In this document: positions 9,920-54,181 of the stretch, one piece after another
Numbering within the stretch: the stretch's first letter is position 1
Layout: the number at the start of each line of letters is the position of its first letter
NCBI GenBank assembly: GCA_905181815.1
Contig: CAJIZA010000001.1
Coordinates: forward strand, 868,001-932,000
Length of the DNA stretch: 64,000 nucleotides
Direction of reading: 5' to 3'
Origin: an uncultured Planktomarina sp.
GTDB taxonomy: Bacteria; Pseudomonadota; Alphaproteobacteria; Rhodobacterales; Rhodobacteraceae
Translations under genes and position numbers: made by a program
Notes under the pieces: model-generated
Told to the model about the DNA's origin: nothing
The model's input: the letters and a program-made list of their open reading frames with translations, nothing else
Databases searched by the model: none

Positions 9920-10215
9920 TTTAGCTGTCCCCTCCGACCAACCTCAAATCGCGCACTCTATACGCCCTATTGAGCACCAAGAAAATACCCCGCCAACATC
10001 CCGCGCGCCGATATGATAGAGAAATATGGCATAGGATATTGAGCCAAAGGCAGATTTTTAGAAGCGATTTTGGGGGCGCGAATGATGGAGCCAGCAGAAA
10101 AACCCTGTTTGAGACTGGCGAGGCTGTCGAAGGATCATGAAGAAAATACACCGCTGTGGAACGGGTGTCAAAAATATTTGTTGAGACCGCAGCCTTTAGA
10201 TGCGCTTGACCTGCC
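9920..10215. other. Intergenic region between chaC and tyrA
   Basis: About 296 bp. It holds the chaC ribosome-binding site at its left end and presumably the chaC promoter. Open frames across it overlap tyrA on the same strand in another frame and have no recognisable product. I see no RNA gene, repeat or convincing terminator. Confidence 0.4.
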
Positions 10216-25896: not shown

Positions 25897-26215
25897 GGCG
25901 CATGGATAAACTGCCGATGCCCCGGCATCCAGAGTAAAACGTCCCACAGGCCAATCTGCCGCCTCGGGTGCACCCAGCAAGGAGAAATCTGCGGAAAATT
26001 AATTGCAATCAAATAAACAGTCGCGCTTGAGCGTTTAGTTATCGCGCCCCGGCAGGCGCTGCCGTCTTTTCCACTGAAACGTGCTCTATGCAGAAGCCAT
26101 TATTTTCTTGCCCGACTCACAAAAATCAGAGTTAATATATGCGCGCCCAACTTGGTTTTACGCCGCATCGGACCTCGGCGCGAAAAATTAACAGACAGTG
26201 GCACGACCCTTTCAA
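25897..26215. other. Divergent intergenic region dnaE / xdhA
   Basis: About 320 bp between two divergent start codons, so it should hold both promoters. The middle is AT-rich (about 25998-26030 and 26095-26145). I see no certain -35/-10 pair, operator palindrome or small ORF. Part of the left end may be translated if dnaE uses the upstream TTG at 25980. Confidence 0.4.
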
Positions 26216-27589
26216 ATGAACATGTCATTTCTCCTCAATGGGAAGTCGGTGTCTGCCGCACCCAAAACTGGCAGTGAAACTCTTTTGGATTATTTGCGCC
26301 TTGAGGCGGATCTCTGCGGTACCAAAGAAGGCTGTAACGAAGGGGATTGCGGTGCTTGCACCGTCATCGTCACGGGACAGGATGGCGTGCCCCGCCCTAT
26401 GAATGCTTGCATATTGTTTTTGCCACAGCTTCAAGGCTGCACCGTGCGCACGGTGGAGGGGCTGCCCGGACCTGATGGCACGCTGCACCCAGTGCAGGAG
26501 GCCATGATAACCCATCACGGTGCGCAATGTGGATTTTGCACCCCGGGATTTGTCACAACCATGGCCGCGGCACATACCACGGGCGAAACGGATTTCGATG
26601 CGGCTCTGGCGGGCAATCTATGTCGCTGCACAGGCTACGCTCCCATCATTCGCGCAGCTCAGGCTGCAGCTCACGTCCCGGCACCCTCTTGGATGGCTGA
26701 ACGGCCAGAGGCCCCGGCCCTTCAGAGCCGCGATGATATTTTTTGTCCGCCCTCCTCCGATGAATTGGCCCAGTGGTATGCCCGCAATCCAGAAGCCACC
26801 CTCATCGCGGGCGGCACCGATGTGGGGCTATGGGTGACGAAAAAAATGAAAGACCTCGGGCCTGTAGCCTTTGTGAGCCACGCAGAGGATCTGCGCCAAA
26901 TCCACGATGAGAAAGACATTCTGCGCATCGGCGCGGCGGTCACAATCACAAATTTGATGCAGGCCATAAGGCCGATATCAGCCTCGCTGCACCAGCTCTT
27001 CAGTCGCTACGGCAGCCCACAGGTACGCAATGCGGCGACGATCGGTGGCAATATCGCCAATGGCTCGCCCATCGGAGATGGCTCGCCCGCCCTTATTGCC
27101 ATGGGCGCGCGCTTGGTTCTGCGCCGTGCAGATGAGCGCCGCAAAGTTGATTTAGAAGATTTCTTTATCGCCTATCAACAGCAAGATCGCCAACCGGGGG
27201 AATTTGTGGAGAGCATCGAACTGCCCAAGGCACAGGACAGGCTGCGCTGCTATAAACTGTCCAAAAGGTTTGATCAGGATATTTCCGCAGTGTGCGGCTG
27301 CTTTAATTTGGAGCAAGAGGACGGTGTGATCACACAGGCCCTTATTGCCTTTGGCGGCATGGCAGCCACCCCCGCAAGGGCACGTAAAACCGAGGCAGCT
27401 TTGTGTGGCAAACCCTGGAGCTTGGAGACATTCCACCAGGCAAAATCCGCTATGGCCGAAGACTTCACCCCTTTGAGCGATATGCGCGCCAGCGCGGGCT
27501 ATCGGGCGAAAGCAGCGGGCAATATGCTGATCCGTTATTTTCATGATCTGCAAGAGACCCCAGTCAACATTCGCGAGGTGCACCCATGA
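26216..27589 (+). CDS. xdhA: Xanthine dehydrogenase small subunit (2Fe-2S and FAD)
   Basis: Carries electrons from the molybdenum centre to FAD and NAD+. The N-terminal [2Fe-2S] ferredoxin domain has CGTKEGCNEGDCGACTV (Cys 34-48). The second, helical cluster domain has CGFCTPGF and CRCTGY. Residues from about 180 form the FAD-binding domain (LIAGGTDVGLW, RNAATIGGNIANGSPIGD). The length is 458 residues from the ATG at 26216; a GTG at 26198 is an alternative, and neither has a clear ribosome-binding site. It overlaps xdhB by 4 bp. It is the first gene of a run with xdhB, xdhC and a purine ABC transporter. Confidence 0.93.
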   Translation: MNMSFLLNGKSVSAAPKTGSETLLDYLRLEADLCGTKEGCNEGDCGACTVIVTGQDGVPRPMNACILFLPQLQGCTVRTVEGLPGPDGTLHPVQEAMITHHGAQCGFCTPGFVTTMAAAHTTGETDFDAALAGNLCRCTGYAPIIRAAQAAAHVPAPSWMAERPEAPALQSRDDIFCPPSSDELAQWYARNPEATLIAGGTDVGLWVTKKMKDLGPVAFVSHAEDLRQIHDEKDILRIGAAVTITNLMQAIRPISASLHQLFSRYGSPQVRNAATIGGNIANGSPIGDGSPALIAMGARLVLRRADERRKVDLEDFFIAYQQQDRQPGEFVESIELPKAQDRLRCYKLSKRFDQDISAVCGCFNLEQEDGVITQALIAFGGMAATPARARKTEAALCGKPWSLETFHQAKSAMAEDFTPLSDMRASAGYRAKAAGNMLIRYFHDLQETPVNIREVHP

Positions 27590-29889
27590 GCTCCGCAGCC
27601 AGCCTCCCGCATGACGCGGCGCGTCAGCATGTGAGTGGCAGCGCGCGCTATGTAGACGATATCCCGACGCCGCAGGGGACCCTGCATCTGGCGTTTGGCC
27701 TTTCATCCTGCGCTGCGGGGCAGATCAAATCAGTGGATCTGGGTGCCGTGCGCGCCTGCCCAGGAGTACATTTGGTGCTGGAGGCCAAGGATCTTCCCCA
27801 TGCCAATGACGTCTCCCCCTCCGCCCATGACGAGCCACTTCTCGCGGATGGCCAGGTGCATTATGCTGGCCAGCCAATCTTTTTGGTGGTGGCCGAGAGC
27901 CATCATCTGGCCCGCCGCGCCGCGCGTTTGGCCATGATTGAGATCAAAGCTGAACCGGCCATATTGACAATAGAGCAGGCTCTGGCCGCCGAAAGCCGCT
28001 TTGAAGATGGGCCTCGGATCTATACAAAAGACACGCCCCAAAGCGCCATGGACGACGCGATCCATCGATTGCAGGGCCAAATTAACCTTGGCGGGCAGGA
28101 ACACTTTTACCTCGAAGGGCAAGCCGCCCTCGCTCTGGCCGGCGATCACGGGGATGTGGTAATCCATTCCTCAACCCAGCACCCAACTGAAATTCAACAT
28201 AAGGTAGCAGAGGCGCTGAATATTGCACTGCATGCCGTGCGCGTGGAAGTACGGCGCATGGGCGGTGGTTTTGGTGGCAAAGAAAGTCAAGGCAATGCGC
28301 TGGCTGTCGCCTGCGCGCTAGCGGCCTCTTTCACCGGACGGCCTTGCAAAATGCGCTATGACCGTGACGATGATTTCATCATCACAGGAAAACGCCATGA
28401 CTGCCGAATTGACTATGACGTCGGCTTTGATGACAGCGGCCGGATCCAGGCACTGGAGTTTACCCATTATTTCCGCTGCGGCTGGGCGCTGGATCTGTCT
28501 TTGCCAGTGGCAGATAGAGCGATGTTGCACGCGGATAACGCCTATGACCTGCCGCATGTAAAAATTAACTCACACCGACTCAAAACCAATACCCAAAGCG
28601 CCACAGCCTTTCGCGGCTTTGGCGGCCCGCAGGGGATGGTGGGCATTGAACGGGTGATGGATCATATCGCCCACAGCCTGTCTTGCGATCCCGCAGAGGT
28701 GCGCCGGCGCAACTATTACCCCGAAATGACCTCCAAGCCCGCCGCGCGCCCGTCGATTACCCCCTATCAGATGGAGGTGACCGATTTCATCTTAGGTGAC
28801 ATGACCGAAAGCCTGTTGCAGCGCTGTGACTACCACGCACGCAAAACTGAGGTTGCGCGCTGGAATGCCCGTAATGCGCTGCTGAAACGCGGCATTGCAT
28901 TTAGTCCCGTGAAATTTGGGATATCCTTTACATTGACCCATCTCAACCAAGCCGGCGCCTTGGTGCAAATCTACACAGATGGATCTGTTTTGATCAATCA
29001 TGGCGGCACGGAGATGGGCCAAGGCCTGTTTCAGAAATTGACACAGGTGGCCGCACGCAGCTTAGGAGCACAGCAGGCGGTCATTCGCGCCTCGGCCACG
29101 GACACCAGCAAAGTTCCCAATACCTCTGCTACCGCTGCCAGCTCTGGGGCTGATCTCAACGGCATGGCAGTGCAAGCGGCCTGCGACACGCTTATTAGCC
29201 GGCTCAAAGACCATGTGGCCGCGCAACACGGCAGAAAGCCCGAAGAGATCTCCTTTGAGGAGGGACAGGTCACCGCCCCGGGTCTCTCGCTCACTTGGCA
29301 AGAGGTGATCGCTTCAGCCTATGAGGCGCGTATTTCGCTCTCCGCCACGGGATTTTACAAAACACCCGAGATTGCTTGGGATCGCATAAAGGGCGCGGGG
29401 CGGCCGTTTTTGTATTTCGCCTATGGCGCAGCGGTGACAGAGGTCGTGATTGACACGCTCACGGGCGAAAACCGTATCCTACGCTGCGATATTCTTCACG
29501 ATTGTGGGGCATCACTGAACCCAGCCTTGGACATCGGACAGATCGAAGGCGGCTTTGTGCAAGGCGCGGGCTGGTTGACGACGGAGGAGTTGGTTTGGGA
29601 CGCATCGGGGCAGCTTAAAACCCATGCGCCCTCCACCTATAAGATCCCCGCCTGTTCCGACCGGCCAGAAGTTTTCAATGTGGATCTATGGTCGGGGCAA
29701 AACACGCAAAAAACCATTTACCGCTCAAAAGCCGTGGGTGAGCCGCCCTTTATGCATGGTATTTCCGCCTTTCTGGCGCTATCAAACGCTGTCGCGGCCT
29801 GCGGACCGGAGTATCCCGACTTGCAAGCGCCAGCTACTTCCGAGGAAGTGTTCAACGCCATCGGCAGGGCGCGAGCATCTACGCCATGA
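27586..29889 (+). CDS. xdhB: Xanthine dehydrogenase large subunit (molybdopterin-binding)
   Basis: Catalytic subunit that hydroxylates hypoxanthine and xanthine to urate at the molybdenum cofactor. The 767-residue protein shows the cofactor-contact motifs GGGFGGKES and AFRGFGGPQG. The C-terminal segment QGAGWLTTEEL contains the catalytic glutamate region. It is coupled to xdhA and xdhC by 4-bp overlaps. The split into two chains (XdhA/XdhB) is the usual bacterial form. It would accept the xanthine produced by the ndm-like demethylase 6-9 kb downstream. Confidence 0.94.
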   Translation: MSSAASLPHDAARQHVSGSARYVDDIPTPQGTLHLAFGLSSCAAGQIKSVDLGAVRACPGVHLVLEAKDLPHANDVSPSAHDEPLLADGQVHYAGQPIFLVVAESHHLARRAARLAMIEIKAEPAILTIEQALAAESRFEDGPRIYTKDTPQSAMDDAIHRLQGQINLGGQEHFYLEGQAALALAGDHGDVVIHSSTQHPTEIQHKVAEALNIALHAVRVEVRRMGGGFGGKESQGNALAVACALAASFTGRPCKMRYDRDDDFIITGKRHDCRIDYDVGFDDSGRIQALEFTHYFRCGWALDLSLPVADRAMLHADNAYDLPHVKINSHRLKTNTQSATAFRGFGGPQGMVGIERVMDHIAHSLSCDPAEVRRRNYYPEMTSKPAARPSITPYQMEVTDFILGDMTESLLQRCDYHARKTEVARWNARNALLKRGIAFSPVKFGISFTLTHLNQAGALVQIYTDGSVLINHGGTEMGQGLFQKLTQVAARSLGAQQAVIRASATDTSKVPNTSATAASSGADLNGMAVQAACDTLISRLKDHVAAQHGRKPEEISFEEGQVTAPGLSLTWQEVIASAYEARISLSATGFYKTPEIAWDRIKGAGRPFLYFAYGAAVTEVVIDTLTGENRILRCDILHDCGASLNPALDIGQIEGGFVQGAGWLTTEELVWDASGQLKTHAPSTYKIPACSDRPEVFNVDLWSGQNTQKTIYRSKAVGEPPFMHGISAFLALSNAVAACGPEYPDLQAPATSEEVFNAIGRARASTP

Positions 29890-30806
29890 GTTTTGATCTT
29901 ATAGGAATCAATGCGGCCATAACCGCCCATGGCGCAGTGACCCGTATTGTGATTGCTGACATAAAAGGCTCTTCGCCGCGTGAAATCGGCGCATCGATGT
30001 TGCTTTGGCCAGGAGGACAAAGCGGCAGCATTGGCGGCGGTGCTTTGGAGTATCAAGCCTCGCAAGCGCCACAACCCGGCCTGCGGCGCTATCCACTGGG
30101 GCCAGAGCTGGGGCAATGTTGTGGTGGCCATGTGACGCTGGTTACGGAGCACTTCACCAGGCCCATTAACATAACCGATGTCTTCATCCGCCGCATAGAA
30201 GGCGACATGGCGATGCCTCTGCCCATTGCACACTTGCAAAAGGCTCGGCGTAACGGCTCAGCGGACCCCGCGGCGCTGATCTGTACCGCAGGCTGGCTTG
30301 CAGAAACCCCAACACCGGCCGCGCAACCACTGTGGATCTGGGGAGCGGGGCATGTGGGCCGGGCGGTCGTGCATATAGCCTCCCAGATGCCAGATTTTGA
30401 GCTGACTTGGATTGATACGAGTCCAGACCGCTTTCCCGAAACCCCGCCCGAGGCAGTGACGCTTGTCCCTGCCGAAAACCCAGCGCCGCTGATGGCCCAT
30501 GCGCCGCGTCACGCGCAGCATTTGATATTCACCTATGCCCATAGTCTGGACCTCGCGCTGTGCCACGCCGCTCTACTGCGCGGATTCGATTTTTGTGGTT
30601 TGATTGGATCGGCCAGTAAATGGGCGCGGTTTCAGCGGCGATTGATGGCCTTAGGACATGCGCCAACAGTAATTTCAAAAATAACTTGCCCAATTGGCGA
30701 TCCAAACCTCGGAAAACAGCCAATTTCTATTGCGATTGGAGTCACCCAAGCCCTATTGTCACACAACATGAACGCCAAAATGCGATACGGGAATGCTCTT
30801 TCATGA
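29886..30806 (+). CDS. xdhC: Xanthine dehydrogenase accessory protein (molybdenum cofactor insertion)
   Basis: XdhC binds molybdenum cofactor, helps its sulfuration and delivers it to XdhB. The 306-residue protein has the N-terminal XdhC/CoxI domain (VIADIKGSSPREIGASM, GSIGGGALEYQA, GQCCGG) and a C-terminal Rossmann-like domain (WIWGAGHVGRAVVHIA, GLIGSASKWARF). The ATG at 29886 and the stop at 30806 both overlap neighbours by 4 bp. This ties cofactor insertion to expression of the enzyme and transporter. Confidence 0.92.
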   Translation: MSFDLIGINAAITAHGAVTRIVIADIKGSSPREIGASMLLWPGGQSGSIGGGALEYQASQAPQPGLRRYPLGPELGQCCGGHVTLVTEHFTRPINITDVFIRRIEGDMAMPLPIAHLQKARRNGSADPAALICTAGWLAETPTPAAQPLWIWGAGHVGRAVVHIASQMPDFELTWIDTSPDRFPETPPEAVTLVPAENPAPLMAHAPRHAQHLIFTYAHSLDLALCHAALLRGFDFCGLIGSASKWARFQRRLMALGHAPTVISKITCPIGDPNLGKQPISIAIGVTQALLSHNMNAKMRYGNALS

Positions 30807-32308
30807 GTAAGACACTTTTAAACCTACACGGGCTGACAAAGGCTTATCCCGGCGTCATTGCCAATCAGGATGTGGGGTTTGGCATCGGCACGGGAGAAAT
30901 TCACGCGCTCTTGGGCGAGAATGGCGCTGGTAAATCAACCTTGGTCAAGATGATCTACGGGTTGGTGCGACCCGATTCCGGACAAATGCAACTTTTTGAT
31001 GCGCCCTATGCCCCCGAAGAGCCCCGTGCGGCGCGGGCCGCCGGCGTGGCGATGGTGTTTCAGCATTTCAGCCTCTTTGAGGCTTTGAACGTGGCGGAAA
31101 ATATCGCCCTCGGCATGGAAAACCCGCCAAAGTCCAGCGCCCTCTCGGTACGGATTACGGAAGTCTCTGAGGCCTATGGCCTGCCGCTGGATCCGGAGCG
31201 GTTGGTGGGGGATCTCTCTGCGGGGGAACGCCAAAGGGTCGAGATCGTCCGCTGCCTTTTGCAAGACCCCAAACTGCTCATCATGGATGAACCCACCAGC
31301 GTTTTGACCCCGCAAGAGGTACAAACCCTCTTTGCCACGCTGCGCAAGCTCAAGTCAGAAGGCACCTCCATTCTCTACATTTCCCATAAACTCGAGGAAA
31401 TTCGCGATCTATGTGAAACCGCAACCATTTTGCGCGCAGGGCGCAAGATCGCCACATGCGATCCGCGGAAAAAATCCGCACGCGCGTTGGCAGAGATGAT
31501 GGTCGGCGGCACGCTCAACTCGGCAAAACCGCAACACGGCGCGCTCGGCGATGTGGTGCTCGACGTGGCAGATCTTTCACTTGCACCGCAAACAACCTTT
31601 GGCACAAGTTTGAAAAATATTTCTTTTTCCCTTCGCAAGGGTGAAGTCTTAGGGATCGGCGGCGTTGCGGGCAATGGCCAAGACGAGCTGGTTGCTTGCC
31701 TGTCTGGTGAAGTGCTCCGCCCGCAAGACCGGATTAAACTCAACACGATGGGTATTGGGCATTTGGCCCCAAATGCACGGCGCGCCTTGGGACTTTTGGC
31801 CGCCCCAGAGGAGCGTTTGGGCCATGCGGCCGCGCCCGATATGAGCCTGACGGAAAATGCCATGCTCACGGGGATGGTGCGCAAAGAGCTGAGCCGTTCA
31901 GGCTTTCTGGACTGGCCGCGCGCCCGCGCTTTTGCCCAGGAGGTGATTGAAACCTTCGATGTGCGCACGCCCGATGCACAGTCTGCCGCACGGTCCCTGT
32001 CCGGCGGCAATTTGCAGAAATTCGTCATCGGACGCGAGGTTCTGCAAAATCCTTCAGTCTTGATCGTCAACCAACCCACTTGGGGCGTCGATGCAGCCGC
32101 GGCGGCGGCAATTCGCCAAGCCTTGCTAGACCTGGCAAGCCAAGGCGCAGGGGTCATCATCATCAGCCAGGATTTGGATGAGCTTATAGAAATTTCCACC
32201 AATTTCGCCGCACTCAATGCCGGCTGCCTGTCAGCCGCCCGCCCAATGTCGGGCCTAAGTTTGGATGAAATTGGCCTCTTGCTGGGAGGCGCCAATGCTG
32301 CGGCTTGA
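30803..32308 (+). CDS. ABC transporter ATP-binding protein, purine/nucleoside (BMP-type) importer
   Basis: A 501-residue double ATPase of the sugar/nucleoside type. The first domain has Walker A GENGAGKST, signature LSAGERQRVEI and Walker B LLIMDEPTSVLTP. The second keeps LSGGNLQKFVIGREV, but its Walker A is degenerate (GVAGNGQDEL), as is usual for the class. I chose the ATG at 30803, which overlaps the xdhC stop (ATGA); longer frames are read-through into xdhC. Coupling to xdhABC argues for xanthine, hypoxanthine or a related purine as substrate. Confidence 0.92.
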   Translation: MSKTLLNLHGLTKAYPGVIANQDVGFGIGTGEIHALLGENGAGKSTLVKMIYGLVRPDSGQMQLFDAPYAPEEPRAARAAGVAMVFQHFSLFEALNVAENIALGMENPPKSSALSVRITEVSEAYGLPLDPERLVGDLSAGERQRVEIVRCLLQDPKLLIMDEPTSVLTPQEVQTLFATLRKLKSEGTSILYISHKLEEIRDLCETATILRAGRKIATCDPRKKSARALAEMMVGGTLNSAKPQHGALGDVVLDVADLSLAPQTTFGTSLKNISFSLRKGEVLGIGGVAGNGQDELVACLSGEVLRPQDRIKLNTMGIGHLAPNARRALGLLAAPEERLGHAAAPDMSLTENAMLTGMVRKELSRSGFLDWPRARAFAQEVIETFDVRTPDAQSAARSLSGGNLQKFVIGREVLQNPSVLIVNQPTWGVDAAAAAAIRQALLDLASQGAGVIIISQDLDELIEISTNFAALNAGCLSAARPMSGLSLDEIGLLLGGANAAA

Positions 32309-33380
32309 AAAACGCCCGAACCCCTCAAAGACTTGGGCTTATATGGCTCCGGCTCTGGCCGTTTTTGCCACGATGATCGGCGGCGGCATCATGTTTGCCG
32401 CTTTGGGAAAGGATCCCTTTGAAGCCATCCGCACAATTTTCTATGATCCACTGTTCTCCGAATTTGCATGGTATTATCGCCCGCAGCTTTTGGTCAAAGG
32501 CGCGCCTTTGATTTTGATCGCCATCGGTCTGTCGATGGGGTTCCGCGCTGGCATTTGGAACATTGGCGCCGAGGGACAATATATCATCGGTGCGATTTGT
32601 GGCGCAGGCGTGGCGCTAGCTGTCTACCCGGCGCAAAGTGCTTTCATTTTTCCCACCATGATCTTTTTTGGCGCATTGGGCGGCTTTGTCTGGGCTATAA
32701 TTCCTGCGATTTTGAAAACAAGGTTTGGCACCAACGAAATCTTAGTGAGCCTCATGCTGGTCTATGTCGCAGAACAGCTGCTGGCGTCTATGTCGCTGGG
32801 TTTGTTGAAAAACCCTGAAGGATTTGGCTTTCCCGGGTCTCGTAATTTGCAGCAATACGCCAGCGCGCACAATGCAGAGCTTTGGACAGGCACCGGCATT
32901 CACATGGGCGTTATGTTTGCCTTCATCGCCGTGATTTTTGCCTATGTCTTACTGGCGCGGCATCAAATGGGCTTTCACATTCGTTTGACCGGGGAAAGCC
33001 CCAAGGCGGCTAAATTTGCCGGGGTCAATCCAAAGCGGCTTGTGGTTTATTGCCTTGGATTTAGTGGCGCTTTGGCGGGGCTGGCCGGCATGTTTGAAGT
33101 CTCCGGACCCAGCGGACAAATCAGTATTGATTTCAATGTCGGCTACGGGTTCACGGCCATCATTGTGGCATTTTTGGGCCGGCTCCATCCGATCGGCATC
33201 CTCTTGGCCGGACTGCTCATGGCACTGACCTATATTGGTGGTGAGATTGCGCAATCCAGTCTCGGCCTGCCCTCTGCGGCGATCCAGGCCTTTCAAGGTA
33301 TGTTGCTGTTCTTCCTTCTTGCACTCGACATGCTGACAAATTTCAAAATAAGATTCACAAGCGTGGGGAGCCCCGCATGA
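32295..33380 (+). CDS. ABC transporter permease, purine/nucleoside importer (1)
   Basis: An inner-membrane permease of 361 residues with about ten hydrophobic segments. The conserved coupling element GFRAGIWNIGAEGQY is typical of the permeases working with BMP-type binding proteins. The ATG at 32295 has GGGAGG upstream and lies 14 bp inside the end of the ATPase gene. It pairs with the next permease. Confidence 0.9.
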   Translation: MLRLEKRPNPSKTWAYMAPALAVFATMIGGGIMFAALGKDPFEAIRTIFYDPLFSEFAWYYRPQLLVKGAPLILIAIGLSMGFRAGIWNIGAEGQYIIGAICGAGVALAVYPAQSAFIFPTMIFFGALGGFVWAIIPAILKTRFGTNEILVSLMLVYVAEQLLASMSLGLLKNPEGFGFPGSRNLQQYASAHNAELWTGTGIHMGVMFAFIAVIFAYVLLARHQMGFHIRLTGESPKAAKFAGVNPKRLVVYCLGFSGALAGLAGMFEVSGPSGQISIDFNVGYGFTAIIVAFLGRLHPIGILLAGLLMALTYIGGEIAQSSLGLPSAAIQAFQGMLLFFLLALDMLTNFKIRFTSVGSPA

Positions 33381-33429
33381 AGACCTGCAGACGTCAGCCA
33401 GACTTGAATTCAAACGGGACGTATACGTG

Positions 33430-34362
33430 ATGGATTTAAGCGCTATCAGCCCAACTCTTTTGGTCGCATCACTCATGGTGGCCGCAACACCTATTTTATT
33501 AGCGGCCATTGGGGAGTTAGTAGTCGAAAAATCTGGAGTTTTGAACCTTGGGGTTGAAGGCATGATGATCATCGGTGCCATTGCCGGTTTCTCCGCAGCC
33601 GTGAGCACAGGCTCGCCCATCATCGGCTTTATTTGCGCAGCGCTTGGCGGGGCGGCCCTCTCCTTAGTATTTGCACTTTTGACGCAATTTTTTCTGTCGA
33701 ACCAAGTTGCCACGGGTCTGGCGCTGACTCTCTTTGGCCTCGGGCTTTCGGCGCTGATGGGGCAAAGCTATATTGGGATTAAGCCCCCGTCGAGCGTGAA
33801 GTTGGATCTGCCTGTCATTAGCGACATCCCCATCCTCGGCCCGATTTTGTTTTCTCATGACATCACAGTTTACGTCGCTTTGGCCTTGGTTACTGGAGTC
33901 TGGTGGTTTTTGAAATATACTCGTGGGGGTTTGATCCTACGTGCTGTGGGAGAAAGCCATGATGCGGCCCATGCTCTGGGCTATAAGGTCGTCAAAGTCC
34001 GCATATTGGCAATTATGTTTGGCGGCGCATGTGCCGGACTAGGGGGTGCATCGCTCTCGCTGGTGCGCGTGCCACAATGGACGGAAGGTATGACCGCTGG
34101 CGCGGGCTGGATCGCCCTGGCCATTGTCGTGTTTGCGAGCTGGAAACCGGCCCGTGCGCTTCTGGGTGCCTATCTTTTTGGTGGTGTCGCCGTTTTGCAG
34201 TTGAACCTTCAAGCTGCCGGTATATCAGTTTCAGTTGAGTATTTGTCGATGTCACCTTACGTGATGACCATAGTTGTCCTCGTAATTATGTCTGCTAATC
34301 GATCAAGATCGGCATTGAATGCACCGGCAGCACTTGGCCGTGTATTTCATGCCTCACGCTGA
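33430..34362 (+). CDS. ABC transporter permease, purine/nucleoside importer (2)
   Basis: The second permease of the same importer, 310 residues, with about eight to nine membrane segments. The motif EKSGVLNLGVEGMMIIGA is the counterpart of the GAEG element in permease 1. A GTG at 33427 is directly before the chosen ATG at 33430. The gap of about 50 bp after permease 1 is the widest in this operon. No binding protein follows on this strand; the nearest is the opposing BMP gene at 34498. Confidence 0.9.
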   Translation: MDLSAISPTLLVASLMVAATPILLAAIGELVVEKSGVLNLGVEGMMIIGAIAGFSAAVSTGSPIIGFICAALGGAALSLVFALLTQFFLSNQVATGLALTLFGLGLSALMGQSYIGIKPPSSVKLDLPVISDIPILGPILFSHDITVYVALALVTGVWWFLKYTRGGLILRAVGESHDAAHALGYKVVKVRILAIMFGGACAGLGGASLSLVRVPQWTEGMTAGAGWIALAIVVFASWKPARALLGAYLFGGVAVLQLNLQAAGISVSVEYLSMSPYVMTIVVLVIMSANRSRSALNAPAALGRVFHASR

Positions 34363-34433
34363 CTGCTCGCATTCTACTGGCAATGATACCGCGCGTTGGG
34401 TTGACGACACATTGAACACATATGTTTCAACAA

Positions 34434-34464
34434 ATGTGAGGCCGGCAGTTAGCCGGCCTCACAT
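34434..34464. terminator. Bidirectional terminator between convergent operons
   Basis: A perfect 13-base inverted repeat: ATGTGAGGCCGGC (34434-34446) and GCCGGCCTCACAT (34452-34464), with a 5-base loop. It lies between the end of the xdh/ABC operon (34362) and the end of the opposing BMP gene (34498). The T tracts on both sides are short, so termination may be partial. Confidence 0.75.
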
Positions 34465-34497
34465 ATCTGATTTATAAAGCCGTTTACACGGACAACC

Positions 34498-35580
34498 TTA
34501 GGTAGGTGGCGATGCCGTTATACCTTCAACATAGAAGTCCATAGTATCTAGTTGCATACGTGTCGCTACTTCACCTTCCGCAAGAAACGCTGTTCCGTCT
34601 TGCTTGTTGATCGGGCCGGTAAATCCAAACAATTCACCTGCACTAATAGCATCTTTAACACGCTGTGCTTCAGCTTCCACCTCTGCAGGCATGTTAGCGA
34701 ATGGCGCCATGCCTACTGCGCCTGTGTTCATGTGGCCAAAGTAATCGCCTGTGGTCCAAGTACCATCAAGCACCTGGCCAACTTTGTCGATGTAGTATGG
34801 ACCCCAGTTATCTATCGTAGCTGTCAACTGTGCCTTAGGCGCAAACTTCATTTGATCTGATGCTTGTCCAAAGCCCACTACCCCAGCTTCTTGAGCCGCT
34901 GTGAGTGGTGCGGGTGAGTCAGTATGCTGAGCAACCACGTCACACCCCTGTTGGATCATTACGTTTGCAGCATCACCTTCCAAGCCCGGATTATACCAAG
35001 TGTAAACCCAGGTAATAGAAAGTTCTACATCAGGGTTCATTTTTTTTGCACCCAAATAGTATGTGTTAATTTCACGCATGACTTCTGGAATTGGAAATGA
35101 TGCAACGTAGCAAATTTTATTTGTTTTTGTCATCATACCAGCAATAACACCTTGAACGTGTCGTGCTTGATATAATTTCAAACCATAATTTGCAGCGTTA
35201 TCTGCCTGCTTGTAACCAGTTGCATGCTCAAATTTTACATTTGGAAACTTTTTGGCCACATTCAACACAGCATCCATATAACCAAACGATGTTGCGAAAA
35301 TAATGTCTGCGCCATTCAGAGCCATCTGCGTCATTACTCGCTCTGAATCTGGGCCTTCTGGCACACTCTCCACGTACACAGTTTCAACTCTATCACCGTA
35401 TTCCGCCTCTACTTGCTGACGACCAATATCGTGACGATATGTCCACCCATGATCACCTGTTGGGCCTACATAAATAAATCCAACTTTTACTTTATCTTTG
35501 GGTTCATCAGCATAGGACGGCACAACGAATCCAGCTGCCAATACAACTGCTGACATAAATACTCTTAGTAGTTTCACCAT
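34498..35580 (-). CDS. BMP-family ABC transporter substrate-binding protein (purine/nucleoside type)
   Basis: A periplasmic binding protein of 360 residues. Residues 1-24 form a signal peptide ending SYA before DEPKDKVKVGFIYVGP. The mature part has the BMP/PnrA pattern (GDHGWTYRHDIGR, ADIIFATSFGYMDAVL, QQGCDVVAQHTDSPA). Family members bind purine nucleosides, and some bind free bases. It points against the neighbouring ABC operon, which has an ATPase and two permeases but no binding protein. It is in the AT-rich block with the ndm-like genes. It could serve that transporter, possibly with a methylated-purine ligand; the ligand is inference. Three TTGATCA-like repeats lie upstream of its start. 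Confidence 0.88.
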   Translation of the reverse strand: MVKLLRVFMSAVVLAAGFVVPSYADEPKDKVKVGFIYVGPTGDHGWTYRHDIGRQQVEAEYGDRVETVYVESVPEGPDSERVMTQMALNGADIIFATSFGYMDAVLNVAKKFPNVKFEHATGYKQADNAANYGLKLYQARHVQGVIAGMMTKTNKICYVASFPIPEVMREINTYYLGAKKMNPDVELSITWVYTWYNPGLEGDAANVMIQQGCDVVAQHTDSPAPLTAAQEAGVVGFGQASDQMKFAPKAQLTATIDNWGPYYIDKVGQVLDGTWTTGDYFGHMNTGAVGMAPFANMPAEVEAEAQRVKDAISAGELFGFTGPINKQDGTAFLAEGEVATRMQLDTMDFYVEGITASPPT

Positions 35581-35628
35581 ATATCCTTTCTAGTTTCTTA
35601 AGTGCGAATAAAACGTAAGATCTACTAA

Positions 35629-35664
35629 TTGATCACTCGAACTTGATCAAACACACTTGATTAA
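35629..35664. repeat. Three phased TTGATCA-type direct repeats (operator candidate)
   Basis: TTGATCAC at 35629, TTGATCAA at 35643 and TTGATTAA at 35657 follow each other at exactly 14-base spacing. The second and third units are embedded in a longer repeat, ACTTGAT(C/T)AA. They lie about 50-85 bp upstream of the BMP start, where a regulator could act. No regulator gene is adjacent. Confidence 0.6.
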
Positions 35665-35867
35665 TGCTTGTGAATGCTAATGCATGAGGGGCGGTTGGTC
35701 CATCAGTATTGCGTCAGCGATTAAATCTGTTTCGATTAGTACCTGATTAGGCCTGACTGCTTGATACTTGACCGAACGAGCCAACATATTCCGTTCGCCT
35801 TAACAATTGGAACAATTATTTATTTCGGCACCAATTTTCAGAGGTTTATCCCAAAGTTTAAAACATC

Positions 35868-35883
35868 CGCTAGGCGCCTAGCG
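35868..35883 (-). terminator. 16-bp palindrome, possible terminator of the ndm-like operon
   Basis: CGCTAGGCGCCTAGCG is a perfect palindrome that can fold as a 6-bp stem with a GCGC loop. It lies 22 bp beyond the GST-like gene stop. Reading the minus strand, GATGTTTTAAA follows. This fits a weak terminator, but a protein-binding palindrome is equally possible. Confidence 0.4.
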
Positions 35884-35905
35884 ATGGTCTGTAAATATCA
35901 GAGCG

Positions 35906-36535
35906 TTATGCAGCTTTGCTGGTAGGGAATATCCCCGGCATAGTTATGAAACCATCGATCCGCTTTACACGATCGCACCAACGTCGAATCGCTGGGAAAT
36001 CCATCCTAGAAATTCCACCTTCTTCCGAAAGGGCAACATAAGGGAAACAACTTATGTCAGCAATGGTTGGAAACGGCGTTTCAACGAGCCAATCGTCTCC
36101 ACGTTTTTCGGAAAACCATAGATGCTCATCTAGAATTCGAAACAATCGGTGTGCGCCAGCACGCGCGGTGTCAATATCCAAATCATAAAAAAATGTGTCA
36201 TGCAGGCGAGCAGCCGATGCCGTGGCAGTTATTTCATCTGCTACTCGCATCCAATTGTCGATGCTCAAGCGCTGTTTTTTAGGATACCAAAACCCAGATT
36301 TGTCGTAATTTTCAGCGATATAAGACAAAATGACATCTGACCCGCAAAAAATTGCATCTGAATCTTCAAAAATTGGTAATTGCCCAAGTGGATTAAGCGA
36401 CAGCAGAGCTTTCGACTTATGTTCACGTCCAGGGTAGAAGTCTACCGGCTTGGTATCAAAATTTAAACCCAAAATACTTAGAAACAGCCGGACTTTATAA
36501 CAATTTCCAGACAGTTCGTAGTCATATAATTTCAT
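35906..36535 (-). CDS. ndmE: Glutathione S-transferase-like protein, NdmE-like subunit
   Basis: A 209-residue protein with a thioredoxin-like GST N-domain (KLYDYELSGNCYKVRLFLSIL, NPLGQLPIFEDSDAIF) and an all-helical C-domain. It starts 11 bp after the stop of the Rieske-ferredoxin reductase gene and is the last gene of that operon. In P. putida CBB5 the methylxanthine N7-demethylase needs a GST-like protein, NdmE, as a structural partner of NdmC and NdmD. The same trio is seen here, which is the basis of the name. On its own the sequence would only be called a GST-family protein, so the symbol rests on context. Confidence 0.72.
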   Translation of the reverse strand: MKLYDYELSGNCYKVRLFLSILGLNFDTKPVDFYPGREHKSKALLSLNPLGQLPIFEDSDAIFCGSDVILSYIAENYDKSGFWYPKKQRLSIDNWMRVADEITATASAARLHDTFFYDLDIDTARAGAHRLFRILDEHLWFSEKRGDDWLVETPFPTIADISCFPYVALSEEGGISRMDFPAIRRWCDRVKRIDGFITMPGIFPTSKAA

Positions 36536-36546
36536 TTACTGGTTCC

Positions 36547-38256
36547 CTATATATCCAAAACAAGTTGGTTTGATTTTGACCTTGAAACACAAGTAATGAT
36601 CTTTTGGTTCGACGCCTTCTCTTTTGTCGAAAGATATACATCCTGATGATCAGGCTCACCCCCGATCACAGTCATCAAACATGTGCCGCAAGCACCTTGT
36701 TCACAGGAACTTGGGACTTCAATTCCATTTTCTCTTAAAATCTGCAGAATTGTCTTGCCTGCCGGCACTTGTAGGGTCAACGCTGACCGGGATAGCGCTA
36801 TTTCAAAGGTCGTCTTATCGTCAATTTCTTTCGAATTTTTAAAATACTCAAAGTGAACCGCTTCGTCTGGCCATCCACACTTCTTTGCAGCTTCACGAGC
36901 CGCCTCCAACATTACACCAGGACCACATATATAGACATGTTGAGCCGCAACATAATTAGCAAGAACACCAGAAATTACATTGCGTGTTGCTCGCGGCGAG
37001 AGGCCCATGTAAATTTTTGTAAGAGCATCCAAGTCCTGCAAGATCTCCGGAAACGCCAAATCAGCTTTGGTTTGGACAAAGATATGCAGCTCGAATGGTA
37101 GTTCCTGAGCTTTAAGCGCTTGAGCCATAGAGAGTAAAGGCGTGATACCTATACCGCCTGAAATTAGAATCGTTTTCACCGCATCACGGCGAAGTGGAAA
37201 GTTGTTATGTGGCGCCGATATTGCAATGACATCGCCTTCTTGAACATCATCATGAAGGCATATTGATCCGCCACGAGATGCGACATCGCGTTTAACACCG
37301 ATAGTGTAGTGATCGGTTTGACCCGGTCCATTTGTTAGTGAATATTGCCGCAGCATACCGTTAGGTAGGCTGACGTCTATGTGTGCACCGGGTTGGAAGG
37401 TTGGAAATTGTTCGCTAAACGCCTCAAGCCGAAATGCCATAACTTGTTGAGCTGTAAGCCATTTTCTAGCAACCTTTGCACGCAACTCAACTTTTGGGCC
37501 AGCAGTATTAATGTTTGGCATTTGAGCGAGATCTTTAGCAACAGGCTTAAATTCCACCTCTATAGCTCGCGGAGGAGCGAGACCACTCACAGCCAGTTCT
37601 ATTTTGTCTCGTAGGGCTGTCATCATCGCATTGTGATGCCTCAGAGCAACGATGGGATCGATTGGTTGGGGTATCAACAAGCCACGTATGATTGTTTTCC
37701 CTGAATCAACAGGTTGGAAAAATAGTTGCAACTCGGACACCCCAGATTGAAGGGTCATAGATGTGTCGCTCTTATGCGTTACCATTCCATAAGGGTAATC
37801 GGTCGCAAATTTTTGTACTAAGTCAGATGGAGCGTTTATTTGAATTGCACGCAAAGTTAAGGGTACTGTATCCGTTAATGTAACAGGCGTCTCAAAACTT
37901 CGTTCAGGCGCCACAACTGACCAAACAAGCCCATACTTCTCAATGCATTGATAAGCATTGTTGCAAACGGTGCGAGCGGGTGCGTCAGCAGGATGGGCCG
38001 GAATATAGGTGCAGCCTGCGGTTCGATTCGCATATCGCCACCCATGATAAAGACAACGGAGTTCACTACCCTCGTTCAGACCTATGCTTAACCGTACACC
38101 ACGATGCAGGCACCTATTTTCCCAGACATTTACATGGCCGTCATCAGCGCGCCAGATGGCTAATTCATGCCCCCAAAGTTGACCCTGATAAACATGTCGT
38201 AATGGAAGGTCGCTGCTTGAGGCAACAGGATGCCATTGGCTAAGGTCAACTTTCAT
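36547..38256 (-). CDS. ndmD: Rieske/FNR/ferredoxin fusion reductase, NdmD-like
   Basis: A 569-residue electron-transfer protein. An N-terminal Rieske [2Fe-2S] domain has C49-L-H51 and C68-L-Y-H71. A middle region of about 130 residues lacks an iron site. A flavin domain has RQYSLTNGP at 303-311, followed by NAD-binding GGIGITPLLSM and YICGPG. A C-terminal plant-type [2Fe-2S] domain has Cys 518, 523, 526 and 556. Ordinary VanB/PDR reductases have no Rieske domain; this extra one is the known hallmark of NdmD, which lends its Rieske centre to N-demethylases. I chose the ATG at 38256, with GGAG upstream, over the in-frame start at 38289. It should reduce the neighbouring NdmC-like subunit using NADH. 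Confidence 0.82.
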   Translation of the reverse strand: MKVDLSQWHPVASSSDLPLRHVYQGQLWGHELAIWRADDGHVNVWENRCLHRGVRLSIGLNEGSELRCLYHGWRYANRTAGCTYIPAHPADAPARTVCNNAYQCIEKYGLVWSVVAPERSFETPVTLTDTVPLTLRAIQINAPSDLVQKFATDYPYGMVTHKSDTSMTLQSGVSELQLFFQPVDSGKTIIRGLLIPQPIDPIVALRHHNAMMTALRDKIELAVSGLAPPRAIEVEFKPVAKDLAQMPNINTAGPKVELRAKVARKWLTAQQVMAFRLEAFSEQFPTFQPGAHIDVSLPNGMLRQYSLTNGPGQTDHYTIGVKRDVASRGGSICLHDDVQEGDVIAISAPHNNFPLRRDAVKTILISGGIGITPLLSMAQALKAQELPFELHIFVQTKADLAFPEILQDLDALTKIYMGLSPRATRNVISGVLANYVAAQHVYICGPGVMLEAAREAAKKCGWPDEAVHFEYFKNSKEIDDKTTFEIALSRSALTLQVPAGKTILQILRENGIEVPSSCEQGACGTCLMTVIGGEPDHQDVYLSTKEKASNQKIITCVSRSKSNQLVLDI

Positions 38257-38269
38257 CTCGGACTCCAAG

Positions 38270-39139
38270 TCAAATTGATGGAATGACACCGTAGGTCAGA
38301 CCTTTTTTTGCAAGCCATCGGCGGTAAGCAATAGCAGATTTGTCAGCACGGATCGGTGTTTCAGCACGACTGTCAAGTGGTAAGCGTTTTGGAAACTGGT
38401 TCTCTAAGATCGACTTGTCCTGTCCAAAAATAATCTGCTGAAAATACCTAATACTTTCATAGCTATTTGCGACGTCAATCACACACATTCCGGTATGCGC
38501 ACGTGTCCATTCAGGACCCATCGGCTGAAGGAACATATAAATAACGTCCATCCGCCCTTCAGCTTCATACCCAGGACTAGATTTGTACAAGAGTGCACAG
38601 TTAGTATGCGGAACACGAAAAATGTAATCAACGTCCGCACCAGCCGCAGACGCCAACGAGGCCTGTGGTTGATAAAATCTACAACGGGTAGCCATGATTT
38701 CATCACGGCTTTCTGAAACGTCTACATCGTATTCTTTAACCTCAGTGTGCGGCTCCTCTCCCAGAATGCCAGTATGCACGAATGGAAAGTGTCCCATATC
38801 AAGAAAGTTTTCGATAGCGCGGCCGAATGATACGTTCACACCAAAAACTCCGGTAGCAACGTTTTGGCGATCAGGTTCATCAATTTCCTCGACGGCAAAT
38901 AATTCGTCTGGTGGTATTCCAAGACTGGTCCATAAAAACCCATATGCACGTTTTGTAGGTAGCACAAAACTCACATTGTCACATGACCAAACAAATAATT
39001 CACCCTTCGCTGTCTGCTGATAAAATAACGAACGGCCAAGAAGAACAGTTCTGTGTTTTTGACCAACTACTATTTCATTAAAGGAGCTGAGTGGATGCCA
39101 TTGATTTAGTACCACTGGATCGTCACAATCTTGTGTCAT
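38270..39139 (-). CDS. ndmC: Rieske-less non-heme iron N-demethylase catalytic subunit, NdmC-like
   Basis: A 289-residue protein of the Rieske oxygenase alpha-subunit family that keeps only the catalytic half. The mononuclear iron site is ENFLDMGHFPFVH (D114, H117, H122) with the carboxylate ligand D241 in FGQDKSILENQ. The N-terminal 80 residues lack both halves of the Rieske motif (no CxH, no CxxH). Loss of the Rieske domain is the known peculiarity of NdmC, the 7-methylxanthine N7-demethylase, which takes electrons through the Rieske domain of NdmD. It is first in the operon ndmC-ndmD-ndmE, with 13 bp to ndmD. The predicted reaction is removal of an N-methyl group as formaldehyde; 7-methylxanthine is the best guess at substrate. 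Confidence 0.82.
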   Translation of the reverse strand: MTQDCDDPVVLNQWHPLSSFNEIVVGQKHRTVLLGRSLFYQQTAKGELFVWSCDNVSFVLPTKRAYGFLWTSLGIPPDELFAVEEIDEPDRQNVATGVFGVNVSFGRAIENFLDMGHFPFVHTGILGEEPHTEVKEYDVDVSESRDEIMATRCRFYQPQASLASAAGADVDYIFRVPHTNCALLYKSSPGYEAEGRMDVIYMFLQPMGPEWTRAHTGMCVIDVANSYESIRYFQQIIFGQDKSILENQFPKRLPLDSRAETPIRADKSAIAYRRWLAKKGLTYGVIPSI

Positions 39140-39151
39140 ACTGCTACTTTC

Positions 39152-39409
39152 CTAGTCATTGAAAATATGGAACATCAGTTTTGATCGACTGAATGGATTT
39201 GTTGCCACAGTTTCACCCCCAAAAAAACCAAACAATAAACAGCATAGCAAGACAAATATCACGTACTGTATCAGAATTGGCGTGATCATTGAATTCCAGG
39301 CTTCGGAGATTTTCTTTTCAAGACTTTTTAAGACAATAAAGTGGACAACAAAAAAGTATAATGGGGAGAGAGGAGATCGTTTTTGCAAAACTAATATGAG
39401 TAACTGCAT
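39152..39409 (-). CDS. Possible small membrane protein upstream of ndmC-like gene
   Basis: An open frame of 85 residues ending 12 bp before the ndmC-like start. Two hydrophobic stretches (about 16-30 and 42-67) could span the membrane. A GGGAGAG element lies about nine bases before the ATG at 39409, and spacing suggests operon membership. I recognise no family, and an overlapping plus-strand frame of similar length exists. The sequence is AT-rich, in which such frames arise by chance. Treat as doubtful. Confidence 0.3.
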   Translation of the reverse strand: MQLLILVLQKRSPLSPLYFFVVHFIVLKSLEKKISEAWNSMITPILIQYVIFVLLCCLLFGFFGGETVATNPFSRSKLMFHIFND

Positions 39410-39688
39410 TATTAGATCTCTCCCAAGAGCATAGGTCTCCTCGCTTAGCGCAGAAATCGCACATCTTTAAAGCATTCCCAAAGAATGGACTTTGAACAAA
39501 ATATGACTAAACATTTTATATTGCCTGATAGGCTGTAATCGTCTTTCTATGAGAATAGCTAACAATCTAGTTCGGATATTCTTTGACGTTAGCGAAGAAT
39601 ATTAAATACAAGTGAAAAAGCGCTTGGCAATGAGTGTGACACCTCATTTTGACTTTTATAAATGAATATTACCATGCATTGTTGTCAA
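39410..39688. other. Right boundary region of the AT-rich block
   Basis: AT-rich sequence separating the divergent ndm-like operon and the FAD oxidoreductase gene. An imperfect inverted repeat lies at 39576-39602 (ATATTCTTTG / CGAAGAATAT, 7-base loop). No ORF of quality, mobile-element end or tRNA fragment is recognisable. GC content rises sharply just beyond 39690. Confidence 0.5.
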
Positions 39689-53041: not shown

Positions 53042-54181
53042 TTATTTCTCTTTGACGTAAGCCACCCCACCTGACCGGGGCGGAATCGCTTTGCCAACGA
53101 AGCCTGCGAGGACCACGACAGTCAGCACATAGGGCAGCGATTGGATGAAAACCACCGGGATCTTGATCATACTGCCCAGACCGGCGTTCAAATTGCTCAA
53201 GGTTATCAAGGTCGCCACAATCGCAAGCCCCAAGCCCAGACCTCCCAAAACGATGCGATCAAGCAAGGTTTTGTTTCGCACATAGGCGAAAAGGCCACAT
53301 CCAAGCGCCAAAAGCACCCCGCTCATCGCCCAAGCCGGCAGGAGGATGTTTTGGAAGCGGTTGTCGACCGCAAAGAAAAACCCAAACAACAAACAGGCAC
53401 CCAGCGCATACCATGGCCGCCACTTGGCGAAGATCAAAGCAGCCAGAGCGATGAACCCACGGCCAGCAGACATATCTTTGACAAAACCGGCTTGCAAAGC
53501 CGTGGCCATGTAGGCTCCAGCAATCCCACATAAAACTCCGCAGATGCCAACCGCGGCGTAACGCAAACCCACGACAGAAATCCCCGCCGTATCCACCGCA
53601 GCCGGGTTTTCTCCTACAGCGCGCAAGCGCAAGCCAAAGCGGGTTTTATATAAAACAAACCACGTCAATGGCACCATCAAAAGCGCCACATAGACCAGCA
53701 AGGAATGCCCTGAAAGCAGCTCGGAATAGAGCTGCATGAAAGGCCCAGCCTGCGAAATTTCTTTCGCCGGCACGGCACCAGGCAGGCTGAGGGGTTCAAA
53801 ACGTCCGCCAGAGAGGAGCGGCGGGGTGCGCCCACCTTGGCCAAACCAATCTTGCGAAATCACCACCGTTAATCCGGCGGCCAAAAAGTTGATCGCAACG
53901 CCAGAAATGATTTGATCGCCGCGCAGGGTGATCGAGGCCAGCCCATGAATGGCAGACAGCAACAGCGCGGCGCCAATCCCAGCTAAAAGTCCCAACCAGA
54001 CCGATCCAGTGGTTGCGGCAATCGCCGCCGATAAAAAAGCCGCTGCCAGCATTTTTCCTTCAAGGCCAATGTCAAAAATACCAGCCCGCTCCGAAAACAA
54101 TCCAGCAAGGCAGGCCAGTAGCAGCGGCGTGGCCAAACGCAGGGAGCTGTCTAAAACTTGTAAGAGCGTGAGAAAATCCAT
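53042..54181 (-). CDS. ABC transporter permease, second nucleoside/purine importer (a)
   Basis: A 379-residue inner-membrane permease with about ten hydrophobic segments and the motif ERAGIFDIGLEGKMLAAA, typical of BMP-type importers. It is the last gene of a BMP-ATPase-permease-permease operon and starts 5 bp after the previous stop. The paralogue at 33430 is shorter but alike in organisation. Confidence 0.9.
   Translation of the reverse strand: MDFLTLLQVLDSSLRLATPLLLACLAGLFSERAGIFDIGLEGKMLAAAFLSAAIAATTGSVWLGLLAGIGAALLLSAIHGLASITLRGDQIISGVAINFLAAGLTVVISQDWFGQGGRTPPLLSGGRFEPLSLPGAVPAKEISQAGPFMQLYSELLSGHSLLVYVALLMVPLTWFVLYKTRFGLRLRAVGENPAAVDTAGISVVGLRYAAVGICGVLCGIAGAYMATALQAGFVKDMSAGRGFIALAALIFAKWRPWYALGACLLFGFFFAVDNRFQNILLPAWAMSGVLLALGCGLFAYVRNKTLLDRIVLGGLGLGLAIVATLITLSNLNAGLGSMIKIPVVFIQSLPYVLTVVVLAGFVGKAIPPRSGGVAYVKEK

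Follow-up and report, generated by a model that had tools for sequence, protein, structure and literature searches.

Gene content of the ndmCDE-like locus

We analyzed a 64,000-nucleotide stretch of DNA from an uncultured Planktomarina sp. (contig CAJIZA010000001.1, positions 868,001 to 932,000), here called the window, which carries three adjacent genes resembling ndmC, ndmD, and ndmE and, beside them, a gene for a PnrA/Bmp-family (BMP) binding protein that we call bmp'. A review describes NdmCDE of Pseudomonas putida CBB5 as a 7-methylxanthine N7-demethylase (PMC4408171). The genes and the segment that holds them are as follows.

38270..39139, minus strand: NdmC-like catalytic subunit (Pfam, PDB-sequence, motif, and profile searches; 46% identical to the reference NdmC)
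36547..38289, minus strand: NdmD-like protein with a Rieske domain, a probable vestigial middle domain, and FNR and plant ferredoxin domains (domain and profile searches)
35906..36535, minus strand: NdmE-like GST-family protein (GST_N matches; 56% identical to the reference NdmE)
34498..35580, minus strand: bmp', the PnrA/Bmp-family binding protein of the cassette (PF02608, 169.1 bits)
34363..39674, no strand: segment of the acquired cassette, which stands in place of the resident binding-protein gene (homology borders)

The original prediction for this DNA had placed the trio here on the minus strand, and open reading frame (ORF) calling confirmed all three as intact frames. It left bmp' unmentioned although that gene lies within the range it covered, and it missed both the gene swap and the horizontal acquisition described below.

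The oxygenase has 289 amino acids and matches the Pfam model VanA_C at residues 102 to 278 (65.8 bits); no other Pfam model matched it at an E value of ≤0.001. Its iron site consists of D114, H117, and H122 in the motif DMGHFPFVH and of D241, which closes a GQD motif, and a motif search of the protein found no Rieske motif (CxH..CxxH). The size, the four iron ligands, and the missing Rieske motif had all been predicted correctly. A canonical Rieske oxygenase alpha subunit joins a Rieske and a catalytic domain in a single chain, and the window oxygenase does not have this form. Its best PDB matches, SxtDIOX, SxtT, and NdmA (76.8, 75.6, and 38.3 bits), belong to the same catalytic-domain family. 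Unlike the window oxygenase, all three of these carry the Rieske and catalytic domains within one chain.

In the 580-amino-acid NdmD-like protein, Pfam located a Rieske domain (residues 18 to 101), an FAD/NAD reductase, and Fer2 (residues 501 to 570); the Rieske motif spans C60 to H82, and the ferredoxin motif begins at C529. Phthalate dioxygenase reductase (2pia) matches the FNR and ferredoxin half only (223.7 bits, residues 269 to 580) and, unlike the NdmD-like protein, has no N-terminal Rieske module. The third protein, of 209 amino acids, has GST_N matches. The domain content foreseen for these two proteins was borne out by Pfam, and all the features of an NdmCDE-type system are present: a Rieske-less oxygenase with a mononuclear iron site, a Rieske-bearing reductase, and an adjacent GST-like protein. 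The ndmC-like and ndmD-like frames share 20 bases as called; judging from an alignment of homologues, the true ndmD-like start may lie about 11 codons downstream of the called one.

Replacement of the resident binding-protein gene

Next to bmp', on the opposite strand and converging with the cassette genes, lies an operon for xanthine dehydrogenase and an ABC transporter, which by its domains forms a complete BMP/PnrA-type set when bmp' is counted (Bmp protein, ABC ATPase, and two BPD_transp_2 permeases).

26198..27589, plus strand: xdhA, xanthine dehydrogenase small subunit and first operon gene (ORF; named from its position before xdhB and xdhC)
27586..29889, plus strand: xdhB, xanthine dehydrogenase molybdopterin subunit (TIGR02965, 1150.6 bits; cutoff, 849.5)
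29886..30806, plus strand: xdhC, xanthine dehydrogenase accessory protein (TIGR02964, 225.1 bits; cutoff, 161.6)
30803..32308, plus strand: resident ATPase of the purine/nucleoside-type (BMP) ABC transporter (Pfam ABC_tran in two stretches; start inferred from the ORF)
32265..33380, plus strand: resident ABC permease 1 (Pfam BPD_transp_2; 94 to 98% identical in relatives)
33427..34362, plus strand: resident ABC permease 2 (Pfam BPD_transp_2; 91 to 93% identical in relatives)

In the close relatives L155 to L158, the gene order is dnaE, xdhABC, ABC, perm1, perm2, bmp, DAO, and DMGDH, with bmp on the operon strand; bmp also stands on that strand in four more distant genomes (L159, L160, L165, and L166). 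In five genomes, xdhB is 92 to 95% identical to that of the window. The locus comparison covered four of them (G011, G003, G001, and G005) and left out G002, where xdhB and bmp are on separate contigs. Against the four close relatives, the neighboring proteins compared are 87 to 99% identical (xdhA, which is syntenic, 88 to 95%; the ATPase, 94 to 97%), whereas bmp' is only 56 to 58% identical to the resident bmp. DNA homology to five aligned relatives stops at 34362, which is the perm2 stop codon, and resumes at 39675, just inside the DAO gene (at 39695 with L155 and at 39689 with L159). Between these borders, only the two bmp genes align, in antisense. The four cassette genes have a G+C content of 43 to 46%, compared with 55 to 59% for the flanking genes.

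Elsewhere in the genus, no NdmC-level match was found in the other 19 genomes searched, some of which are incomplete (G009 gave an E value of 7e-4 over 86 residues). BMP matches of some kind occur in each of the 20 genus genomes. A search of the genome of the window, which is 91.7% complete, did not find the resident bmp. Because the only other Bmp gene found there is just 25% identical to bmp', the transporter probably depends on bmp'. By this comparison of sequences, the trio and bmp' are one horizontally acquired cassette that replaced, in inverted orientation, the last gene of the xdhABC-ABC-permease operon.

A Bmp match at an E value of ≤1e-90 occurs in 362 of 394 family genomes, that of the window included. 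The best match to bmp' among the 394 is in G402 (75%), and the next best are at 61 to 62%. In a 64-row BMP tree, bmp' pairs with the G402 protein (100/100; stem, 0.57) and falls outside the two clades into which the eight resident BMPs of the genus group (6 and 2 rows; 100/100 for both clades). L197 and L226 in this tree are the same G402 gene labeled twice, and L197 was omitted from the comparison of conserved columns. Of the 134 columns in which 95% or more of 36 resident BMPs agree, 16 carry a change in bmp' and in the G402 protein alike, which is consistent with altered specificity. G402 carries an unbroken run in one direction, xdhABC-ABC-perm1-perm2-BMP-Rieske-NdmC-GST. The closest solved relatives of bmp' by sequence are 3s99 (a basic membrane lipoprotein) and 6pi5 (an atrazine periplasmic binding protein).

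Candidate regulatory features of the cassette and its border are listed next.

39140..39661, minus strand: intergenic region upstream of ndmC, 36% G+C, presumed to be the cassette promoter region (composition)
35867..35884, minus strand: hairpin directly downstream of the ndmE-like gene (simple pattern scan)
34434..34464, plus strand: 13-bp hairpin between the converging operons, a candidate two-way terminator (simple pattern scan)

The terminator pattern scan found 10 matches against a shuffle mean of 5.3 (standard deviation, 2.4), and the promoter scan was at chance level (10 against a shuffle mean of 10.9). An Rfam search of the region upstream of ndmC found no riboswitch; it gave a single match, below the gathering score, to a microRNA family. 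The window also encodes a second BMP-type permease (53042 to 53998, minus strand; 34% identical to permease 2) and a second Bmp binding protein (57017 to 57847, minus strand).

The NdmC family and a possible origin of the split oxygenase

As the reference, we used the ndmABCDE cluster L016 from plasmid pTmex-577K of P. putida MT178. We took it as bona fide because one of its full-length Rieske oxygenases matches crystallized NdmA (phmmer, 764.6 bits; 350 residues) and the ferredoxin domain of crystallized NdmD is matched by its reductase (163.8 bits; 87 residues). Identity of the window proteins to those of L016 is 46% for NdmC, 34% for NdmD (594 columns), and 56% for NdmE, with BLASTP E values of 2e-91, 3e-123, and 1e-91, respectively. 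At these E values the trio match is not due to chance, and the BLASTP check proposed with the original prediction came out in its favor. To NdmA and NdmB of L016, the window oxygenase is 23 to 24% identical over about 220 residues.

The scan for NdmC loci across genomes used iron-site motifs, and the best 80 loci among the matches listed were kept. In a quick 154-row tree, built without bootstrap and with many rows that are tblastn segments rather than curated genes (as in the GuaD and BMP trees), all 152 NdmC-type rows separated from NdmA and NdmB in a starred split. The oxygenase clusters with NdmC, far from NdmA and NdmB, which is the placement that the prediction needed. All 152 NdmC-family rows keep the iron site, a figure that is partly built in because the scan used iron-site motifs. 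A careful 51-row tree gave a window clade of 28 rows (93/92, not starred) and a Pseudomonas NdmC clade of 13 rows (94/87, not starred); most of the other proteins in the Pseudomonas clade have a separate small Rieske partner. The closest oxygenase relative of the window, at 77%, is that of L030, a Paracoccaceae metagenome genome.

Tandem second oxygenases formed a clade of 8 rows in the careful tree (100/100), with L033 and L108 as a further pair. This clade joins the Pseudomonas side in the quick tree and the window side in the careful tree, and of its 28 rows in the quick tree, 27 are directly upstream of another NdmC gene. At L038 (9101 to 9967 with 10001 to 10906) and at 26 further loci, a single NdmD and a single NdmE go with both tandem paralogues, which possibly serve two methyl positions or form a mixed complex.

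Compared with the CBB5-type cluster (PMC4408171; here through L016), the window has the same architecture and gene order. It differs in that no NdmA or NdmB was found, its cassette has no nucleobase symporter, its oxygenase groups in another NdmC subfamily (unstarred), its trio is linked to a BMP-type ABC transporter and xdhABC, and its formaldehyde dehydrogenase lies elsewhere in the genome. In the 91.7% complete genome we found four Rieske places: one is the trio, one is 28 to 31% identical to NdmA and NdmB in a stretch shorter than 100 residues, and the remaining two gave no match at an E value of ≤1e-5. No full copy of NdmA or NdmB is among them, as had been predicted, so that the genome as assembled does not show the set expected of a caffeine N-demethylation cluster, ndmA and ndmB with ndmCDE.

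The original prediction had also held that the trio defines a 7-methylxanthine demethylase. Membership in the NdmCDE family stood, but the definition goes too far, as PMC4408171 lists ndmCDE homologues of unknown function in 18 organisms. Among such homologues, those of Sinorhizobium and Mesorhizobium have oxygenases 62% (S. medicae, L015) and 59% (Mesorhizobium AR02, L022) identical to that of the window, and both loci share with the window a BMP-type ABC transporter next to the ndmCDE-like genes. They come with ABC genes of their own and a GntR regulator, and AR02 has its own GuaD, whereas the window relies on resident ABC genes. By sequence, we assign the trio to the NdmCDE architecture; the case for its substrate is strong but unproven.

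The N-terminal part of the NdmC-like protein bears on how a Rieske-less oxygenase arose. Residues 10 to 72 align to the NdmD Rieske domain (hhalign, 97.6%; E value, 4e-12); H62, C79, and H82 fall in a 48-residue gap, and no cysteine faces C60. The alignment indicates that this N terminus is a degenerate Rieske remnant from which the ligand block has gone. Conversely, the NdmD stretch between the Rieske domain and the reductase gave one 24-column match to the NdmC catalytic domain (score, 34.3, against at most 19.7 in 60 column shuffles), and with moderate confidence, given a short local match, we take this middle domain to be a catalytic-domain remnant. The profile was built from 28 loci of the family and of plasmids, and there the Rieske module is a stand-alone protein of 198 to 233 amino acids with no fused reductase. 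Such proteins with a degenerate second domain adjoin NdmC and GST genes (L020, 8339 to 8989; L226, 9284 to 9895; L238; and others). The system may have arisen from two ordinary Rieske oxygenase copies that lost complementary halves, after which some lineages fused the Rieske half to the reductase; our confidence on the NdmD side of this scheme is moderate.

Other members of the family also drew attention. On pSymA of S. meliloti 1021 (L014), five places match the NdmC-like protein on one plasmid, and the L014 stretch holds NdmC-type genes, a BMP transporter, and an FrmA-like gene; a literature search on NdmC in S. meliloti that covered few subscription journals found nothing. On pPp1290 of P. 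putida 1290, the NdmD-type gene is annotated as three reading frames and looks broken (L024, 9850 to 11605). Two putatively viral IMG/VR contigs (L025, 5001 to 5627, and L026, 2274 to 2900) contain a distant NdmC-like stretch (33% identity).

Purine linkage and proposed function

We called an NdmC locus purine linked if it has a neighboring GuaD, 8-oxoguanine-deaminase-like amidohydrolase, BMP plus ABC, XdhB, or nucleobase symporter. By tblastn, with bit-score cutoffs of our own setting and among loci that share ancestry, such a neighbor occurs at 46 of the 80 genome-scan loci, at 22 of the 30 family-survey loci, and in 0 of 40 control stretches. The family loci represent 29 genomes (L162 and L163 are overlapping loci of G064), and NdmC-level matches occur in 30 of the 394 family genomes, that of the window included. 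Thirty-eight controls are from NdmC-carrying genomes and two are from G011, which is without NdmC; one control stretch had a GST match above the NdmE cutoff. At least 19 kb was available for 53 scan and 25 family loci, of which 31 and 19, respectively, have a purine-linked neighbor. BMP plus ABC was found at 42 scan and 20 family loci, the NdmC-linked type of GuaD at 10 and 5, and XdhB at 4 and 4; formaldehyde genes lie nearby at 11 and 1. The linkage recurs across alpha- and gammaproteobacteria and actinobacteria. Two examples are the family genome G290, with a contiguous run (xdhABC-Rieske-NdmC-GST-amidohydrolase-BMP-ABC-perm-perm), and Mesorhizobium AR02, where the order is transporter, GntR, ndmCDE-like genes, and guaD.

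The NdmC-linked guanine deaminases form a group of their own. Those of L022, L063, and L082 score 401 to 412 bits, above the guanine deaminase cutoff of 375.4, and the linked type makes up a separate clade (99/99; branch, 1.71; 27 rows including duplicates). A search of 10 genomes with a linked GuaD (L056, L059, L063, L068, L072, L082, L084, L088, L089, and L094; the five family genomes were outside it) found an additional housekeeping GuaD in every one (502 to 625 bits). In Nocardioides (L057), a single GuaD stands beside xdh genes and falls outside the linked clade. At the 90% level, the two GuaD groups have forty conserved positions in common and differ at nine, in a comparison that omitted L057, L267, L270, and duplicates. 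The retention of a second deaminase next to a purine demethylase points to methylated guanine as the substrate. The linked clade occurs with the NdmC subfamily of the window (L022, L063, and L082) and likewise with oxygenases sister to the proven enzyme (L163, L242, L246, and L248), which argues for one shared substrate class; as far as sequence can tell, this is the best argument for transferring N7 specificity to the window.

The genome of the window has a housekeeping-type GuaD (503 bits) and a glutathione-dependent formaldehyde dehydrogenase (611.3 bits; cutoff, 543.95). The GuaD gene adjoins, on the opposite strand, an 8-oxoguanine-deaminase-like gene (670.2 bits; cutoff, 532; L161, 9253 to 11996; C1, about 683 to 686 kb).

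Because of the xdhABC and purine-transporter setting and the guanine deaminase link in relatives, a methylated purine is the likely substrate, in line with the purine demethylation originally proposed. We lean toward reading the cassette as an acquired module for the use of N-methylated purines, with 7-methylxanthine, taken up directly or derived from 7-methylguanine, as its most likely substrate. The sequences establish the gene content, the architecture, the exchange of the resident binding-protein gene, and, in relatives, the linkage to purine genes; the substrate, the methyl position, the electron path, and the role of bmp' are what we infer here. The bmp' product would take the place of the resident binding protein and work with the resident ATPase and permeases to import the base. 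7-Methylxanthine would be imported as such or formed from 7-methylguanine by guanine deaminase. By analogy with NdmCDE (PMC4408171), the NdmC-like oxygenase would oxidize the N-methyl group. The GST-like NdmE may hold the complex together. Electrons would pass from NADH to flavin, the ferredoxin cluster, the NdmD Rieske cluster, and the NdmC iron, which is the order of carriers in NdmCDE. The formaldehyde released would be oxidized by the glutathione-dependent formaldehyde dehydrogenase, and the xanthine would pass to the neighboring xdhABC products.

Several observations weigh against this reading. In both trees, the window oxygenase stands apart from Pseudomonas NdmC (with unstarred supports in the careful tree), a result that leans against strict orthology to the proven enzyme. 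The NdmC-linked type of GuaD is absent from the cassette and was not found in the 91.7% complete genome. The G402 oxygenase, despite the pairing of the BMPs, is of the split-Rieske subfamily and not of that of the window. By the criteria chosen, 34 of the 80 scan loci have no purine-linked neighbor, and several of the nearest trio relatives (L030, L031/L227, L032, L034, L229, and L230) show no xdh, GuaD, or BMP in the stretches compared, those of L030 and L031 being short. Devosia and its close kin, mostly with a full trio, have no purine genes nearby by tblastn (L060, L062, L064, L066, L069, L073, L074, L075, L076, L078, L079, L081, L083, L085, L086, and L095), and this subgroup may put the oxygenase to another use.

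Because the window oxygenase and the Pseudomonas enzyme group in separate subfamilies (93/92 and 94/87, both unstarred), the N7 specificity of the former is inference only: of the originally predicted substrate, 7-methylxanthine stands as the most likely candidate, and the methyl position is less firm. The same purine module could instead act at another methyl position or on another modified purine, such as 1- or 3-methylxanthine or another methylguanine, and so not be an N7-demethylase. Many loci have two NdmC paralogues in tandem but just one NdmD and one NdmE, as expected if subfamilies differ in position. We nevertheless judge this rather unlikely, as the one GuaD clade found with both subfamilies points to a single substrate class.

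The several nearest trio relatives without purine neighbors, and the movement of the trio between contexts, would also suit a substrate that is not a purine at all but an N-methyl heterocycle or amine, such as the marine N-methylpyridinium compounds homarine and trigonelline, with the xdhABC neighborhood a coincidence; L032 adjoins a BCCT (betaine-type) transporter. A literature search on homarine, judged by titles and the openings of abstracts, turned up only other methylated amines. We consider such a substrate improbable, since the BMP of the cassette replaces the own BMP of a purine operon and since the purine linkage recurs in three bacterial groups but in none of the control stretches. 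It is more improbable still that the segment is a hitchhiking or decaying insert with no current purine function. The insert is AT rich and has no NdmC-level counterpart in the rest of the genus as searched, but all four cassette frames are intact, the catalytic and cluster ligands are retained, and the transporter probably depends on bmp'.

Beyond the preferred reading of the window as an N-methylated purine module, we tentatively propose, as a possibility with somewhat less than an even chance, that several bacterial orders share an undescribed 7-methylguanine route of BMP uptake, a dedicated GuaD, NdmC(DE), and xanthine dehydrogenase. The window would have gained the demethylation part through one cassette that swapped the binding protein for one tuned to a methylated base. 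Literature searches covering few subscription journals, judged by titles and the openings of abstracts, found no published 7-methylguanine catabolic route and, for NdmC or Rieske enzymes in marine bacteria, only a caffeine review.

NdmCDE is known from caffeine degraders, and homologues elsewhere had no assigned job in PMC4408171. The links to a divergent GuaD, xanthine dehydrogenase, and a purine-type transporter give them a testable one, the recycling of methylated purines from RNA, 7-methylguanine being the methylated base left from RNA caps, tRNA, and rRNA. The Rieske remnant of NdmC and the apparent catalytic remnant of NdmD hint at how this odd enzyme arose. The window itself is a natural experiment, one genome in which a binding protein and a demethylase were exchanged while close relatives retain the original.

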